From Candidatus Zixiibacteriota bacterium (GTDB lineage: Bacteria > Zixibacteria > MSB-5A5 > WJJR01), in contig JBFMGX010000003.1 in assembly GCA_040752595.1 (NCBI GenBank), positions 1 to 64,000 of the forward strand: 64,000 bases of DNA. The letters are read 5' to 3'. The notes below the pieces were generated by a model. The model was not told the origin of the DNA. It saw only the letters and a list, made by a program, of their open reading frames with translations, and made no database searches. This document shows, piece by piece, positions 57,469 to 64,000 of the stretch. The first letter of the stretch is position 1. Every line of letters begins with the position of its first letter. A program made the translations under genes and the position numbers.

Positions 57469-57545
57469 GGCGGTGTAGCTCAGCTGGTCAGAGCAGCGGA
57501 ATCATAATCCGCGTGTCCGGGGTTCGAATCCCTGCACCGCTACCA
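57469..57545 (+). tRNA. tRNA with CAU anticodon, probably elongator tRNA-Met
   Basis: Acceptor GGCGGTG pairs with CACCGCT (G1-U72 wobble); D arm AGCTCAGCTGGTCAGAGC; anticodon stem GCGGA/TCCGC with loop ATCATAA; T arm CGGGGTTCGAATCCCTG; CCA encoded. The initiator features (unpaired 1-72, GGG/CCC anticodon stem) are absent, so it is elongator Met or tRNA-Ile2 with lysidine-modified CAU. Confidence 0.92.
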
Positions 57546-57665: not shown

Positions 57666-58223
57666 ATGGGATTCGAGGCGAAGCGGGTGGAGGAAATCAC
57701 GATACCCCTGGCGGAGTACCCCCATGTGCGCGAGACCGCGACATTGAAGGACGCCATGGCGGTCTTCAAGTGCCAGTTGGTCGTGGAAGGGGAGCGCTCG
57801 TTGCCGCGCGTCGTTTTGGTGCTCAACGCGGCGCGGGAGATCGTGGGGCAGGTGCGGCGGCGCGACATCCTGCGGGGGTTGGAACCGGAGTTTCTTGTGG
57901 CCCGACCAGGGTCGGATCGCCAGGCGCGCGTCGACTTCAACATGGATGCCAATCTCCTCGAGCTCTTCTTTGATCGCGCCGTCGAGGGGATCCGGGAACG
58001 GTCGATGCGCCGGGTGAGTGAGATCATGCTCCCGGTCGAGGTCACGATCAACCACGATGATCACATCATCAAGGCGATTTACGAACTGGTGGACAAGAAT
58101 CTGAGTCTCCTCCCCGTGTTGAAAGACCGAGAGGTCATCGGTGTGGTCCGTTCGGTCGACGTGTTCCGTGAATTGAGCCGGATTGTGCTCCCGGAACACG
58201 ACAACAGTGGGGACTGCGACTGA
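57666..58223 (+). CDS. Two-CBS-domain protein (paralogue of 60490-61026)
   Basis: 185 residues, soluble. CBS 1 (about residues 8-70): ITIPLAEYPHVRETATLKDA, RVVLVLNAAREIVGQVRRRD, ILRGLEP. CBS 2 (about 118-175): VSEIMLPVEVTINHDDHIIK, LLPVLKDREVIGVVRSVD. Between them is a short helical insert (DANLLELFFDRAVEGIRE). CBS pairs bind adenine nucleotides or similar ligands and regulate partner proteins. It lies 46 bases before a DASS transporter; a paralogue lies beside the PPDK-like gene. The shared phrase RRD-[IM]-L-[RQ]-G-L and the same insert point to duplication and a common job. Confidence 0.9.
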   Translation: MGFEAKRVEEITIPLAEYPHVRETATLKDAMAVFKCQLVVEGERSLPRVVLVLNAAREIVGQVRRRDILRGLEPEFLVARPGSDRQARVDFNMDANLLELFFDRAVEGIRERSMRRVSEIMLPVEVTINHDDHIIKAIYELVDKNLSLLPVLKDREVIGVVRSVDVFRELSRIVLPEHDNSGDCD

Positions 58224-58269
58224 TGCATGCCGTGATGCATGCCGCCGGCCGTCGGCAGACGGGAACAGC

Positions 58270-59826
58270 GTGACTGCCCATGCCACGGGGGGAGTCGCGC
58301 CGCCGCGATCGGAGTCGTTCCGCATCGGGACGAGACGATTCCTGTCGCGGGTCGATCCGACGAAGCTGATCGCGGCCGGTACCGGGATTGGTCTTTTTGT
58401 TCTGTTTCTCCTTGTGCCGGGTCTGCCCGACGCCGTCGATCCGGCGGCGCCTGGTCATCTCGTGCCGTTGCCACGCGAAGGGCGGTTGGCCATCGGTCTG
58501 TTCCTGTTGACGGCCACATGGTGGGTGTTCGAGGTGATTCCCGTGGGCATCACGGCCGTCGCCGTCGTCGCTGCGCAGGCCCTGTTTGCCATCGCCAGAC
58601 CGGGCGCGCCGCCGACCAAAGCCTTTACCGACTTCTTCGATCCCGCCGTTTGGTTCATCTTCGGGTCCCTCCTGTTCGGGATGGTGTTTTCCAAGACCGG
58701 CCTGACGCGCCGTCTGACCTACCGAATGGTCGGACTGATGGGCGAACGCACGAGTCTGATTTACCTGGGGTCTTTTCTGATGGTCTTCGTGCTGACGCTC
58801 TTCATGATGCACACGGCCGCCGCCGCGATCTCCTTTCCTCTGCTCATGGCGGTGTATTCGCTCTATGAGGAGAGTGAGCGGCCGACCCGTTTCGGCAAGG
58901 GGCTGTTCATCGGCATGGCCCACGCCTGCGCCTGCGGTAGTCTGGTCACCTATCTCGGGTCGGCCCGAGCGGCGATCGCGGCCCGATACTATGCCCAAGT
59001 GATGCCGGCGACTCTTGCGGAGGGGCACGATCCGATCACCTTCGGAGATCTCGCCTTCTACATGTTGCCGTTGGGCTTGTTCATGGTGCTGGCGCTGTGG
59101 GTTCTGGTCATGATTCTCTTCAAGCCGGAGCGGCCATCGATCCCCGGTCTGCGGGAACGGGCGCGTCAGCTTTCGCAACGGCTCGGTCCGGTTTCCGCCC
59201 GTGAGATCACGTCGCTCGTCATCGTCCTGGGCACCGTATTCTCTCTTCTCCTTTTGCCGTCTTCCGCCGATTCGGGCATCGACAGGAGTGTCATCATCCT
59301 CACCGCCGTCCTGCTCTTCTTTCTGCTGCGCATTCTCAGTATCGACGATCTGGAGAAGGTGCCCTGGAGCATCATGCTCTTGTTCGGCGGTTCGCTGAGT
59401 CTCGGGCTGTGCCTGTGGGAGACCGGAGCGTCGCGGTGGATGGCGCTTCATCTTCTGCCGCTGTTTCGGGATCATCATCCTCTTCTCTTTGTGCTCGTCT
59501 CGTCCTTGGCGATCATGATCATGACCAACCTCCTGGTCAATGTCGCCGTCATCGCGCTCTGCCTGCCGGTGGCCTTGACGGTCGCCCTGTATCTCGGCGT
59601 TTCGGGAGAGGTTGTGCTGTATTCCAGTCTGGCGGCCGCGGGGATGCCGCTTTTGCTGCTCATCGGCGCCGCGCCCAACGTGATGGCGTATCAGAGCAAG
59701 ATGTTCACCCCGCGCGAGTTCTTCGGGGTCGGTCCTTTGGCGAGCGCCGTCGTCATGGGGATCCTGACGCTGTTTGTGGTGTTGGTTTGGCCGATCTTGG
59801 GGATGCCGACGTTCCCAAGGGGATGA
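58270..59826 (+). CDS. SLC13/DASS family sodium-coupled anion transporter
   Basis: 518 residues, about 12 membrane segments. Family features: LLTATWWVFEVIPVGITAVA near residue 80, FGSLLFGMVFSKTGLTRRL near 130, HTAAAAISFPLLMAVY near 180, and LLVNVAVIALCLPVALTVAL with SLAAAGMPLLLLIGAAPNVM near 430-465, the paired sodium/substrate hairpins. Substrates in the family are dicarboxylates, citrate or sulfate; this one is not assigned. The start is a GTG at 58270; no good ATG is available before the first helix, and upstream codons would overlap the CBS gene. Confidence 0.9.
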   Translation: MTAHATGGVAPPRSESFRIGTRRFLSRVDPTKLIAAGTGIGLFVLFLLVPGLPDAVDPAAPGHLVPLPREGRLAIGLFLLTATWWVFEVIPVGITAVAVVAAQALFAIARPGAPPTKAFTDFFDPAVWFIFGSLLFGMVFSKTGLTRRLTYRMVGLMGERTSLIYLGSFLMVFVLTLFMMHTAAAAISFPLLMAVYSLYEESERPTRFGKGLFIGMAHACACGSLVTYLGSARAAIAARYYAQVMPATLAEGHDPITFGDLAFYMLPLGLFMVLALWVLVMILFKPERPSIPGLRERARQLSQRLGPVSAREITSLVIVLGTVFSLLLLPSSADSGIDRSVIILTAVLLFFLLRILSIDDLEKVPWSIMLLFGGSLSLGLCLWETGASRWMALHLLPLFRDHHPLLFVLVSSLAIMIMTNLLVNVAVIALCLPVALTVALYLGVSGEVVLYSSLAAAGMPLLLLIGAAPNVMAYQSKMFTPREFFGVGPLASAVVMGILTLFVVLVWPILGMPTFPRG

Positions 59827-60003
59827 GGATGACGCCCAAGATTCATGTCGTCGCCTCTGGGGGGACCGTCGCGGCTGGACGGACCGTCCCAAGAGCGGCT
59901 GATACGATGACCGGGTGGGAGAATTCCCTTACCCGCTTGGACTTCCGGTTCAAGCGACCTCTCCCGGAGGGAGAGATTGGAGTTCTGCAGAAGGGGATGT
60001 GTC

Positions 60004-60486
60004 ATGGATGAGAAGTTGATCAACCTCCTGATCGTAGATGATGAGGAAACGTTTCTGTGGGCCATTGCCAAGCGTCTGGAGACCCGCGGTTTCAATGTCG
60101 TCGCAGTCACCCGTGGCGAGGCGGCCATTGCGGAGGCGCAGAAGCAGCCGTTCGACATCGCCCTGGTGGATCTGCGCATACCGGGGATGAACGGCGAGGA
60201 GACCTTACGGATCCTGAAGCAGGAGCACCCCTGGCTGGAGGTCGTCATCCTGACCGGCCATGGGTCCGTCGAATCGGCGGTCGAATGCACGAAGGATGGA
60301 GCCCACTCGTATTTGCAGAAACCCTGCGAATTCGACCGACTGCTTGCGGTTCTGACCGAGGCCTACAAGAAGAAAGTCATGAACAAGCTGAAGACTCGCG
60401 AAGAGCGCATGAACGAGTTGATTGACTACAGCCAGTTCAGCACGCCCCTGGCGATTCTCCGGAAGATCCGGCAGTTGGACGAGTAG
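60004..60486 (+). CDS. Stand-alone response regulator receiver protein
   Basis: 160 residues. The receiver domain occupies residues 1-125: acidic pair in LLIVDDEETFLW, phospho-acceptor Asp in ALVDLRIPGMNGEE near 53, Thr in VILTGHGSVESAV near 80, Lys in YLQKPCEFDRLL near 102. The last 35 residues are a charged helix (KKVMNKLKTREERMNELIDY) rather than a DNA-binding domain, so it must act through protein contacts. No histidine kinase is encoded nearby. It is 177 bases after the DASS gene and its stop is 3 bases from that of the converging CBS gene. AAGGGG leads the ATG. Confidence 0.93.
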   Translation: MDEKLINLLIVDDEETFLWAIAKRLETRGFNVVAVTRGEAAIAEAQKQPFDIALVDLRIPGMNGEETLRILKQEHPWLEVVILTGHGSVESAVECTKDGAHSYLQKPCEFDRLLAVLTEAYKKKVMNKLKTREERMNELIDYSQFSTPLAILRKIRQLDE

Positions 60487-60489
60487 GCG

Positions 60490-61026
60490 TTACTCCCGGA
60501 CGGCGCGGGCGATGATCTCACCGATGGCATCCTCGGCATAGATGATCCCCGTGATCTTCCCTCCCTCGACGACGGGAATGAACGTCAGGTTGCGGTCGAT
60601 CATCAGGTACATGACCAATAGGGCGGGTGTGTTCGACTCCACGGTGGCGTGGATCGGGGTCATGAACTCGATGATCTGCTTTTCCAGCAGCCCGCGCAAC
60701 TCCTGCACGGCGCGCTCGGCGTTGAACCCCAGATGATAGAGGTCGAAATCCCCGGCGGCCTCCGGAACGACCGCGAGCTGTTCGGTCTTGTTGCCGGTCC
60801 GCCGCAGTCCCTGGAGCATATCGCGGCGCTGGACCAGGCCGAGCAACTGGTTCTGGGCGCTGAAGACCAGCATGACCCAGGGGACGTTGCGTCCCGGCCC
60901 ACGACGGCTTTCCACGCTCTCCAGCTCCGCCAGCGCCTGGCGGAACGTGAACCAGTAGGGTACGTAGGGAAACGATGACAGCGGGATCATCATCTCACCG
61001 GCGCATTTCATCTCCATCGCTCCCAT
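60490..61026 (-). CDS. Two-CBS-domain protein (paralogue of 57666-58223)
   Basis: 178 residues, same plan as the first CBS protein: MIPLSSFPYVPYWFTFRQAL, VMLVFSAQNQLLGLVQRRDM, LQGLRR, a helical insert (NAERAVQELRGLLEKQ), then EFMTPIHATVESNTPALLVM and LTFIPVVEGGKITGIIYAED. The start is taken at 61026; ATG codons at 61017 and 61011 are alternatives. The start lies inside the 3' end of the PPDK-like gene (32-base overlap), so the two are co-transcribed and probably co-translated. This suggests a direct partnership between the CBS protein and the phosphohistidine protein. Confidence 0.9.
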   Translation of the reverse strand: MGAMEMKCAGEMMIPLSSFPYVPYWFTFRQALAELESVESRRGPGRNVPWVMLVFSAQNQLLGLVQRRDMLQGLRRTGNKTEQLAVVPEAAGDFDLYHLGFNAERAVQELRGLLEKQIIEFMTPIHATVESNTPALLVMYLMIDRNLTFIPVVEGGKITGIIYAEDAIGEIIARAVRE

Positions 61027-63559
61027 TCTCCACCTTCAGTCCGAGTCTTCCGGCGATCTCATTCAGGTACCATTGGGCGCGCGCATCGCTGGACAAGGTC
61101 ATGTCGAGCTGCTTGGTCAAGATGGTGAGTCGTCCGAGCAGGTGCAGCCGATCGAGGATTTCCCTCCGGCTCCGATATGCCACCAATGAATCGAGGAAGT
61201 CCCCCTGGCCGGAGTTCTCGAATCCCATCCGTTTCAACAGCTCCGCGATCAACCAGACCCGGCGAATGCGGCGTTCCAGGGGAGCGCCGCCCAACTTGAA
61301 CTGCATACGAATGTAGTTCTTCTCCGGCTCGGAGGCGGCGATCGCCTCGATCGTGGAGAAGTGGTATCCCATGCGCAGGTTGAGGAGCATGTATTCCTGG
61401 CTGAGGAAGGCGTAGCTGTTTTCCGAGAATTCCGGTTGATGGCCGCCCTGGATGTTGGCGCCGACGACGGCCAGGAATCCTCTCAGATCCGCTGGGACCT
61501 GACTCTCCGGCCACCCCTCCAACAGGATACCGTCCCACAGGGATTTCATCGGCTGCGAGGCGATCTCGCTTTCCTGCTCCCAGCGCCGGCCGGCGACAGC
61601 ATCGTAGTCGCGGTCGAGGTAGATGATATTGATCCAGAGCGGGATCTTGGTCTTCAGGCGCAGCCCGATGTCGTTCTTGTGCTTCGTTCCCCTTAAGGCG
61701 GCGAAGATGCTCTCCATCGCCTTCTGATGGATGAACCGGGTGATGTCGTGCAACGTGCGGCAGTTCTCGGCCGTGAACCGGGGGTCGCTGGGGTGAATCA
61801 CGTCGAGGTGCACGATCGGTGCGATCATCGCGTCCAGGAGCGGCGCGCCTACGGGCGTCGTGGTGGCGCTGGTGATTTGACCCGGCTGCACGACCCAGTC
61901 GGGATGCGCGCCGTCATAGACGACACCGTGGGTGGCGTCCATGGTGACCGGTCGCCCGGCCGGGAGCCGCAGGGCATCGTTCATGCCGGCGATGGTGGGT
62001 ACGGAAAGCTCGCGCGCGATCGTGGCCAGGTGGCTGGCACTCCCGCCCACCATCGTGATCAGGCCGCTGATCCGACGCATCACCGCCACGAGGTAGGGCG
62101 AGGGATTGGGGGCGACCAAGACGACACCGTCCGGCACCGCACCGAGCGCGGCCGGCGAGTTGACATGGTACACCGGCCCGACACCCGCCCCTGAGGAGAT
62201 CGGAGTGCCTCCCTGCAGCAGTACGACCGGATCGACGTCCGACGGCACTTGAATCTGGGTCTTGGGCGGCGGCGTCCGGAGGGGACGCGTCTGCAACAGG
62301 TACAACTCTCCCGAGCGGTCCAGCGCCCATTCGATGTCCTGCGGCTCGCCAAAATGGGTCTCAAGCGCGACGCCCCATTGTGCCAACCGCCCCAGTTGCT
62401 CGGTTGTGAGCGAAGGAGTGGATTGTTCCTGCGGCGCGATCGGGTACTCCTGCACGCCGCCGTCCGGGCTCAGGCGGAGCCCGGTCGGTTTCCTGGCCAC
62501 GCTGGCGTAGACGACGCTGCCGTCGGCACGGGAGACGTGAAAGACGTCCGGAGTCACTGTTCCGTTCACCAGCGGGATGCCCAAGCCGAAAATCGCATTG
62601 ATGAGAACGTGACCGGCGGCGGGATGGACCGGGTCGTGCGTGTAGACCACGCCGCTGGAGGCGGCATCGACCATTTCCATGCAGGCGACGCCCATGGCCA
62701 GGTCCAGCTCGGCCAGGGAATGGCTCGACAGGTAGTAGATCACCGCGGGCGTGAACTTGCTGGCGAGAATCTGCTTGTAACGTTCCAGCAGATCGTCCCG
62801 TCGTACATTCAGGTAGGTGCGGTACTGTCCCGCAAACGTGAAGGCGCTGTCTTCCCCGACCGCGCTGGAGCGCAACGCGAAACCGTCGCGGCCGGTGCGG
62901 GCGGATAATTCATTAAAGGCGCTCCGAATCGCGGCGGCGAGATCTGCGGGAACCGGCTTGGCGATCACGAGCTCTTGGATCTCCTCGCTCACCGTTTCCA
63001 GGTGCTCATACTTGCGGATTCGGACCGTCGCCAAAAGCCGGCGAATCCGCTCGCTCAAGTCGTTGACATCGATGAAATGCTGATAGGCCCAGGCACTGAT
63101 GGCGAACCCATCCGGTACCGGCAGCTTCACCCGCGATTTGATCTCGCCCAGGTTGGCGTTCTTGCCGCCGACCGAGTTTGCCCGGTCCCGATTCAACCGC
63201 CCGAAGGGTATGATGTACTCGTCGGCAGGAATCCGCCGCGCCTGGGGCAGAAGCGCCTCGACCTCGTGCGAAATCGCGCTCAGCCGTTCACGCAGAATCA
63301 GATAGTCACTGCCCCCCAGCTCGATCATCCGCTCGATGATGTCGCTTACGCCTTCGCGGATCTCGACGAATTCGTCCCAGAGGGCGACGATCGAGTCTAG
63401 GCGGCGATCCTTATGCTTCTCCTCCAGCCGACTGACGAGCTTGAGAACCTGGTTGTGCCGGTCCAGGAGCTGCCGGAACACCGAGAACTTGCGCTGGATG
63501 TCCTGCAGGATGTCCCGGCGCTTGGCGCGGGAACTCCCGAAGATTCGGTCCCACCACAT
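60995..63559 (-). CDS. PPDK/PEP-synthase-like ATP-grasp and phosphohistidine protein lacking the PEP barrel
   Basis: 854 residues. 1-115: helical, charged N-terminal region (KRRDILQDIQRKFSVFRQLL, coiled-coil-like). 118-455: PPDK_N ATP-grasp (NSVGGKNANLGEIKSR, FALRSSAVGEDSAFTFAGQY, DIEWALDRSGELYLLQTRPL). 465-560: phosphohistidine swivel domain with the His in GGSASHLATIARELSVPTIA near residue 510. From about 575 the chain (IHPSDPRFTAENCRTLHDIT, RFIHQKAMESIF, SQEYMLLNLRMGYHFSTIEA) shows no PEP/pyruvate TIM-barrel motifs. So it should be able to move phosphate from ATP to its His but not to make PEP in the usual way. It overlaps the CBS gene downstream. Confidence 0.9.
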   Translation of the reverse strand: MWWDRIFGSSRAKRRDILQDIQRKFSVFRQLLDRHNQVLKLVSRLEEKHKDRRLDSIVALWDEFVEIREGVSDIIERMIELGGSDYLILRERLSAISHEVEALLPQARRIPADEYIIPFGRLNRDRANSVGGKNANLGEIKSRVKLPVPDGFAISAWAYQHFIDVNDLSERIRRLLATVRIRKYEHLETVSEEIQELVIAKPVPADLAAAIRSAFNELSARTGRDGFALRSSAVGEDSAFTFAGQYRTYLNVRRDDLLERYKQILASKFTPAVIYYLSSHSLAELDLAMGVACMEMVDAASSGVVYTHDPVHPAAGHVLINAIFGLGIPLVNGTVTPDVFHVSRADGSVVYASVARKPTGLRLSPDGGVQEYPIAPQEQSTPSLTTEQLGRLAQWGVALETHFGEPQDIEWALDRSGELYLLQTRPLRTPPPKTQIQVPSDVDPVVLLQGGTPISSGAGVGPVYHVNSPAALGAVPDGVVLVAPNPSPYLVAVMRRISGLITMVGGSASHLATIARELSVPTIAGMNDALRLPAGRPVTMDATHGVVYDGAHPDWVVQPGQITSATTTPVGAPLLDAMIAPIVHLDVIHPSDPRFTAENCRTLHDITRFIHQKAMESIFAALRGTKHKNDIGLRLKTKIPLWINIIYLDRDYDAVAGRRWEQESEIASQPMKSLWDGILLEGWPESQVPADLRGFLAVVGANIQGGHQPEFSENSYAFLSQEYMLLNLRMGYHFSTIEAIAASEPEKNYIRMQFKLGGAPLERRIRRVWLIAELLKRMGFENSGQGDFLDSLVAYRSRREILDRLHLLGRLTILTKQLDMTLSSDARAQWYLNEIAGRLGLKVENGSDGDEMRR

Positions 63560-63649: not shown

Positions 63650-63800
63650 ACCCCACACCCCTTCGACTTCCTTCGACTCCGCTCAGGACAAGTCGCTCAG
63701 GGCAGGCCTACCCTCTCCCCAGAAGGGAGAGGGGATGATAACCTCTCCCTCCGGGAGAGGTCGATCCGCCGCAGGCGGATCGGGTGAGGGAGTTCTTTCG
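63650..63800. repeat. CCCTCTCCCC-type hairpin repeat
   Basis: CCCTCTCCCCAGAAGGGAGA, CCTCTCCCTCCGGGAGAGG and GATCCGCCGCAGGCGGATC hairpins in series, with TTCGACTTCCTTCGACTCCG and CTCAGGACAAG flanks. It fills the space between the PPDK-like gene and the last partial gene. Confidence 0.8.
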
Positions 63801-63823: not shown

Positions 63824-64000
63824 TTAGAGCGCAGCGGCCTTCAGCGACCGTTCCTGCCGGAGGCCGCGGACCATGAGCAGGGTCACCACCGCGCACATGG
63901 CCAGTGCAGCGCCCATCACCGTGTAGGCGGCGGCGGTGGTCATCGCGAACTGCTTCAAGGCCACCGAGATTCCGGCGAGGACGATCATGATGGCGAACAA
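63824..64000 (-). CDS. C-terminal end of a membrane protein (5' part beyond the window)
   Basis: The minus strand is open from the window edge to a TAA at 63824-63826: 58 residues, LFAIMIVLAGISVALKQFAM, then TTAAAYTVMGAALAMCAVVT, LLMVRGLRQERSLKAAAL. Two hydrophobic helices and a short basic cytoplasmic-type tail suggest the end of a polytopic transporter, perhaps of the major facilitator type. The family cannot be fixed from this piece. Confidence 0.6.
   Translation of the reverse strand: MFAIMIVLAGISVALKQFAMTTAAAYTVMGAALAMCAVVTLLMVRGLRQERSLKAAAL

Follow-up and report, generated by a model that had tools for sequence, protein, structure and literature searches.

According to the main text of a 2025 report (PMC11887813), a cluster in which a DASS sulfate transporter is encoded with two-component systems and CBS proteins occurs in the Desulfobacteraceae and in 26 species of sulfate-reducing bacteria, the Desulfobacteraceae clusters encode abundant sulfate transporters, and an energy- or adenosine phosphosulfate (APS)-sensing layer via the CBS proteins was proposed by its authors. 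Among dikinases, HpeHI and rifampin phosphotransferase (RPH) transfer phosphate by a swivel domain from ATP to histidine and on to an acceptor, with the release of AMP (PMC12167813). Furthermore, a 24-kDa gamma subunit stimulates the dikinase reaction of phenylphosphate synthase (PMC6114531). In the present study, a locus with features of these systems was analyzed in a stretch of 64,000 nucleotides (hereafter the window) from contig JBFMGX010000003.1 of a Candidatus Zixiibacteriota bacterium. It encodes a dikinase related to phosphoenolpyruvate (PEP) synthase and pyruvate phosphate dikinase (PPDK), here called the PPDK-like protein, two small CBS proteins (CBS1 and CBS2), a DASS permease, a single-domain response regulator (RR), and a TauE/SafE permease at the window's edge (Table 1).

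The preferred reading, to which we give an even chance, is that a dissimilatory sulfate reducer has here a module for sulfate permeases, in which a CBS-regulated dikinase would tune the permeases to the energy state of the cell. The assignment to sulfate reducers is suggested because the C-terminal domain of the PPDK-like protein is almost restricted to genomes with dsr genes and because the genome itself has sat, aprBA and dsrAB.

In this genome (2.94 Mb), sat, aprB, aprA, dsrA and dsrB were found in one block on contig C17; therefore, the host has the dissimilatory sulfate pathway. Directly behind dsrB, in the dsrD position, lies an 81-residue frame (L160 4475-4720, same contig); since it had no Pfam match, the direction of the pathway is only presumed. 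The dikinase family hardly occurs in genomes without dissimilatory sulfite reductase. Within the phylum (133 genomes), dsrA was present in 33 of 34 genomes with the C-terminal domain and in 20 of 99 without it (Fisher test, 3e-16). The 27 dsrA-positive genomes among 297 of the Acidobacteriota included all 14 domain carriers, and none of the 270 dsrA-negative genomes had the domain (6e-17). In addition, 49 genomes of other phyla were selected by the C-terminal domain alone: dsrA exceeded the cut-off in 43, gave fragments or weak matches in four and was not found in two. Two other genomes sampled from the genus had neither the domain nor sat nor aprA, and no dsrA over the cut-off. Elsewhere, the neighbours of the module include sat-aprBA (L067/L110 and L040) and qmoAB (L063, L066 and L097). 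The module was also found in a genome titled Nitrospira sp. (L152, G175), with two genes resembling dsrA (one over the cut-off), which was unexpected for a presumed nitrite oxidiser.

The PPDK-like protein consists of an N-terminal helical extension (residues 1-110), an ATP-grasp domain (128-435), a phosphohistidine swivel domain (476-545, with His510) and a C-terminal domain of about 300 residues (approximately 572-840). K133, R230, E236, E410 and H510 were invariant in all 71 aligned homologues, while Q423 was conserved in 70 and R425 in 69. Judged by its sequence, the protein retains all residues needed to convert ATP into His510-phosphate and AMP. The pyruvate barrel PEP-utilizers_C was absent in the Pfam search, so that the barrel-less protein with an intact phosphohistidine site given in the preliminary description was recovered. 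An ordinary PEP synthase, which that description had named as the outcome that would speak against it, was rejected because the barrel is missing and the scores (312 and 333 against NCBIfam cut-offs of 740 and 598) were under every NCBIfam cut-off. The sequence was closer to the water dikinases (PEP synthase) than to the pyrophosphate (PPi)-using PPDK, and the model of the first half matched 2ols, 5hv2 and 9goj (PEP synthase, rifampin phosphotransferase and HpeI). With its dikinase half intact and its pyruvate half missing, the protein is probably a dikinase with a different acceptor side, like RPH and HpeHI.

The C-terminal domain was conserved like the rest of the protein, with a mean column identity of 44% and 12 invariant positions, including H604, D605, R608, H611, H733 and R767. 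Its model, of fair quality (pLDDT 84), showed mixed helices and strands. No match was obtained in Pfam, NCBIfam or the PDB sequences, and no PDB fold matched at E ≤ 0.001; the weak fold matches, all with query TM-scores of 0.23 or less, were disregarded. Plasmid-borne relatives were rejected, as the plasmid sequences among the matches listed span the shared ATP/His half only.

A search of named genomes found relatives with the C-terminal domain in at least 12 phyla, including Zixibacteriota, Calditrichota, Hydrogenedentota, Poribacteria, Acidobacteriota, Myxococcota, Elusimicrobiota, Omnitrophota, Latescibacterota, Ignavibacteriota, Bacteroidota, Nitrospirota and Thermodesulfobacteriota. Neighbouring genes within 6.5 kb were scored for the 68 homologues whose flanks extended for 3 kb or more in both directions. 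A DASS or TauE permease was found near 48 of them, a CBS gene near 37, a receiver near 51 and the kinase described below near 37. A permease and/or a CBS gene accompanied 54 of the 68, in agreement with the proposal that these genes form a conserved functional set; homologues occurring mostly apart, the outcome that the preliminary description had named as speaking against it, were not the pattern. Groups of these genes were seen again in numerous genomes.

Two layouts were distinguished. Layout A has the order PPDK-HK-RR-CBS1-DASS, and in most of its members a histidine kinase (HK) of dCache-PAS-HisKA-HATPase type lies between the PPDK-like and RR genes. Layout B, that of the window's clade, is TauE-PPDK-CBS2; CBS2 directly 3' of the PPDK-like gene was also found in L060-L062, L080-L082, L084, L085 and L093, and several such units, e.g., L061 and L093, had no adjacent receiver. 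In the tree, the homologues with the CBS2 layout grouped in one clade (SH-aLRT 100) that spans five phyla, pointing to transfer of the whole unit. The Abyssobacteria locus L082 has TauE-PPDK-CBS2-CBS1-DASS in a single run, that is, the gene set of the window without the inversion, so the window seems to hold a rearranged version of this set. Of 116 genomes sampled from the order to which Desulfococcaceae bacterium HSG9 belongs, 73 had the C-terminal domain, and many of the flanks contained TauE, kinases and series of stand-alone receivers akin to the window RR. The dikinase gene of this order (L179-L198) often lay in clusters that also held several kinases and as many as three stand-alone receivers in succession. 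Several Bacteroidota and Ignavibacteriota (L132-L142) had two PPDK-like paralogues in divergent orientation on either side of a TauE gene; one of the two, the second, belongs to a distant clade.

CBS1 and CBS2 were full-length paralogues (30% identity, E 6e-23), as previously suggested, and CBS1 orthologues immediately precede the DASS gene in other genomes. SNT motifs mark the dicarboxylate carriers (VcINDY and kin). None was found in the window DASS or in 31 cluster DASS homologues, compared with two in the other DASS of the same genome, which also holds one SulP permease. Sulfate is most likely the natural substrate of the cluster DASS. Of the carbon or anion uptake proposed earlier, the anion transporter stood, and carbon uptake was rejected on the loss of the SNT motifs and the dissimilatory sulfate context. 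The window RR has the receiver Asp and Lys. It was of the type of the tandem stand-alone receivers in Desulfobacterales clusters (homologues in L180, L188 and L157) and not the conserved RR of layout A. The layout-A dCache kinase was not detected in this genome with one N-terminal dCache query, and none was present in the window; on that single query, the kinase appears to have been lost locally. The preliminary description was right that the cluster lacks a histidine kinase, but the kinase-bearing relatives speak against its absence as a design principle.

Under the preferred reading, the two anion permeases (DASS and TauE/SafE) would each be coded with a small two-CBS protein, and the dikinase alongside. 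CBS2, encoded by the overlapping gene, may be the regulatory subunit of the dikinase, by analogy with the gamma subunit of phenylphosphate synthase, which carries CBS domains. The CBS protein would read adenylates (AMP, ATP or APS), whose pools shift upon sulfate activation, and the phosphorylation state of the dikinase, or a product made with its C-terminal domain, would adjust permease activity. Such a gauge could keep sulfate import and activation within the ATP supply, which would be sensible because sulfate activation consumes ATP and leaves AMP and PPi. The kinase/receiver pair, where present, would be a second and separable control layer. A more specific proposal, that the ATP-driven phosphohistidine protein with its new C-terminal domain and its CBS partner form a dedicated energy gauge gating sulfate permeases and passed between phyla with the permease as a unit, is advanced tentatively, with somewhat less than even confidence.

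Sulfate respiration yields little energy and has an up-front ATP cost, to which sulfate import has to be matched. For this matching, a permease-linked family that has a new domain and hardly occurs outside dsr genomes provides a concrete candidate regulator and a genomic marker, and the matter becomes testable in culturable relatives such as those of the HSG9 order. If the proposal holds, the dikinase would regulate the first step of dissimilatory sulfate reduction, a role not previously recognised.

Several points weigh against the preferred reading. The Fisher values ignore shared ancestry, although the same pattern is seen in phyla that are separate. The PPDK-like family is not required for sulfate reduction, since 20 genomes of the phylum had dsrA and lacked the family, and 14 of the 68 well-flanked homologues had neither a permease nor a CBS gene within the scored distance. 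Moreover, the invariant His, Arg and Asp residues of the C-terminal domain would suit an enzyme with a small-molecule acceptor equally with a regulator. The strongest alternative, unlikely but to be taken seriously, is a metabolic dikinase, whose C-terminal domain binds a small acceptor and which either phosphorylates a compound or, in reverse, recovers ATP from the AMP and PPi of Sat and Apr. The CBS protein would then be an adenylate-sensitive activator, and the permeases would lie nearby since all serve sulfate activation. The invariance of every ATP-side residue and of many C-terminal residues is consistent with this, the characterised relatives (RPH, HpeHI and phenylphosphate synthase) are small-molecule dikinases, and the family is confined to genomes producing AMP and PPi at a high rate. 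However, the steady neighbours are permeases, CBS and two-component genes, with sat and apr occurring less often, and the sequence stands closer to the water dikinases than to the PPi-using PPDK.

Returning to the regulatory reading, the form given in the preliminary description, in which the His-phosphate of the PPDK-like protein is handed to the receiver in place of a histidine kinase, appears very improbable. The receiver does have its Asp and Lys and lies nearby, and the layout-A kinase went undetected in this genome. Nevertheless, most layout-A relatives have their own kinase beside the receiver, the window receiver is of another type and lies 177 bases from DASS, and some TauE-PPDK-CBS2 units have no adjacent receiver at all. 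We know of no precedent for phosphotransfer from a swivel His to a receiver, and direct transfer from the PPDK-like protein to the RR was not supported.

A pathway of aromatic activation like that of phenylphosphate synthase with its gamma subunit, to which sulfate reduction would be linked indirectly, is very improbable. Some sulfate reducers degrade phenol, and phenylphosphate synthase combines a PEP-synthase-like His subunit, an ATP subunit and the stimulating 24-kDa subunit (PMC6114531). However, no carboxylase genes of the phenol pathway were noticed beside the module, where sat, apr, qmo and anion permeases were the neighbours; the spread tracks dsrA across many phyla, and the PPDK-like proteins are fused and not split. 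An accidental adjacency of the CBS, permease, receiver and PPDK-like genes, which the absence of the module from the sampled same-genus members might suggest, can practically be dismissed, because the same genes recur together, in the same order and across phyla.

Table 1. Features of the CBS-DASS-RR-dikinase locus and their positions in the window
Feature	Coordinates	Strand	Match or remark
CBS1, two-CBS protein of DASS-pairing type	57666..58223	+	Pfam CBS 1.6e-11
DASS permease, probable sulfate symporter	58270..59826	+	Pfam PF00939 Na_sulph_symp 3e-43
Single-domain response regulator (RR)	60004..60486	+	Pfam Response_reg 1.6e-27
CBS2, two-CBS protein of type directly 3' of PPDK-like gene	60490..61026	-	Pfam CBS 2.2e-8
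PPDK-like dikinase, 854 aa	60995..63559	-	Pfam PPDK_N 3e-85, PEP-utilizers mobile domain 3e-18
TauE/SafE (TSUP) permease gene, 3' end inside window	63824..64000	-	Gene runs on contig C3 to 64848

The five genes and the geometry of the preliminary description were recovered, and a sixth, the TauE/SafE gene upstream of the PPDK-like gene, had been overlooked. The contig extends 1175 bases past the window end, and this gene lies there directly upstream of the PPDK-like gene on the same strand; the full set is therefore TauE-PPDK-CBS2 facing CBS1-DASS-RR. The reading frame of the TauE/SafE gene was broken near 64070-64086, through either mutation or an assembly error, and was intact in same-clade relatives (neighbours in L060-L062, L080-L082 and L093). 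The likely start of DASS is the GTG at 58270, with a longer frame opening at the TTG at 58183. Counted from the first CBS2 ATG, the CBS2 and PPDK-like genes overlap by 32 bases; the internal ATGs at 61017 or 61011, which are plausible starts because relatives begin near there, would shrink the overlap to 23 or 17. The convergent RR and CBS2 genes are separated by 3 bases (60487-60489), and 177 bases separate RR from DASS. Like inverted repeats at 59958-59976 and 63742-63760 (CCTCTCCC...GGGAGAGG) flank the RR-CBS2-PPDK stretch, with 0.03 expected by chance, and are possibly a dispersed repeat linked to the rearrangement. A tRNA-Met gene (57469-57545) lies 120 bases ahead of CBS1. Because the module is absent from the sampled same-genus members, a tRNA-linked insertion is possible.

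The preliminary description knew of no system with this composition, which held only in part. The DASS, two-component and CBS cluster type of sulfate reducers was already described in 2025. As far as the main text of PMC11887813 shows, that cluster and the relatives of the module have in common DASS, CBS, a Cache sensor kinase, response regulators and a sulfate-reducer host; in the window, a DASS adjoining CBS and a host with the sulfate pathway are present, and the Cache-domain kinase is absent. The response regulators given there are of the WalR type; that of the window consists of a receiver alone and has no kinase with it. The same main text has no PEP-synthase-like dikinase, C-terminal domain of that kind or TauE-PPDK-CBS2 unit, although its supplementary figure may show the gene. 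No account of a dikinase in sulfate uptake was found in the literature searched, with supplements and subscription papers outside its scope. The PPDK-like protein shares the ATP-grasp and phosphohistidine domains and the conserved residues with PEP synthase, PPDK, RPH and HpeHI, and differs from them in the missing PEP-utilizers_C, the unique C-terminal domain and the extra N-terminal helical domain. Phenylphosphate synthase PpsABC likewise joins a dikinase to a small stimulating protein (PMC6114531), but it differs in its split subunits, phenol substrate and genomic context.

In PTS-Ntr, EI-Ntr acts on KdpD and TrkA, so that a phosphohistidine protein is tied to ion transport and a kinase/receiver pair. 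Unlike the module, it uses PEP and not ATP, works with NPr and EIIA-Ntr and has no CBS protein; the two are related only via the mobile His domain. The literature searched contained no account of the dikinase family and its own domain, of the TauE-PPDK-CBS2 unit, of the spread over many phyla or of the almost complete restriction to dsr genomes.

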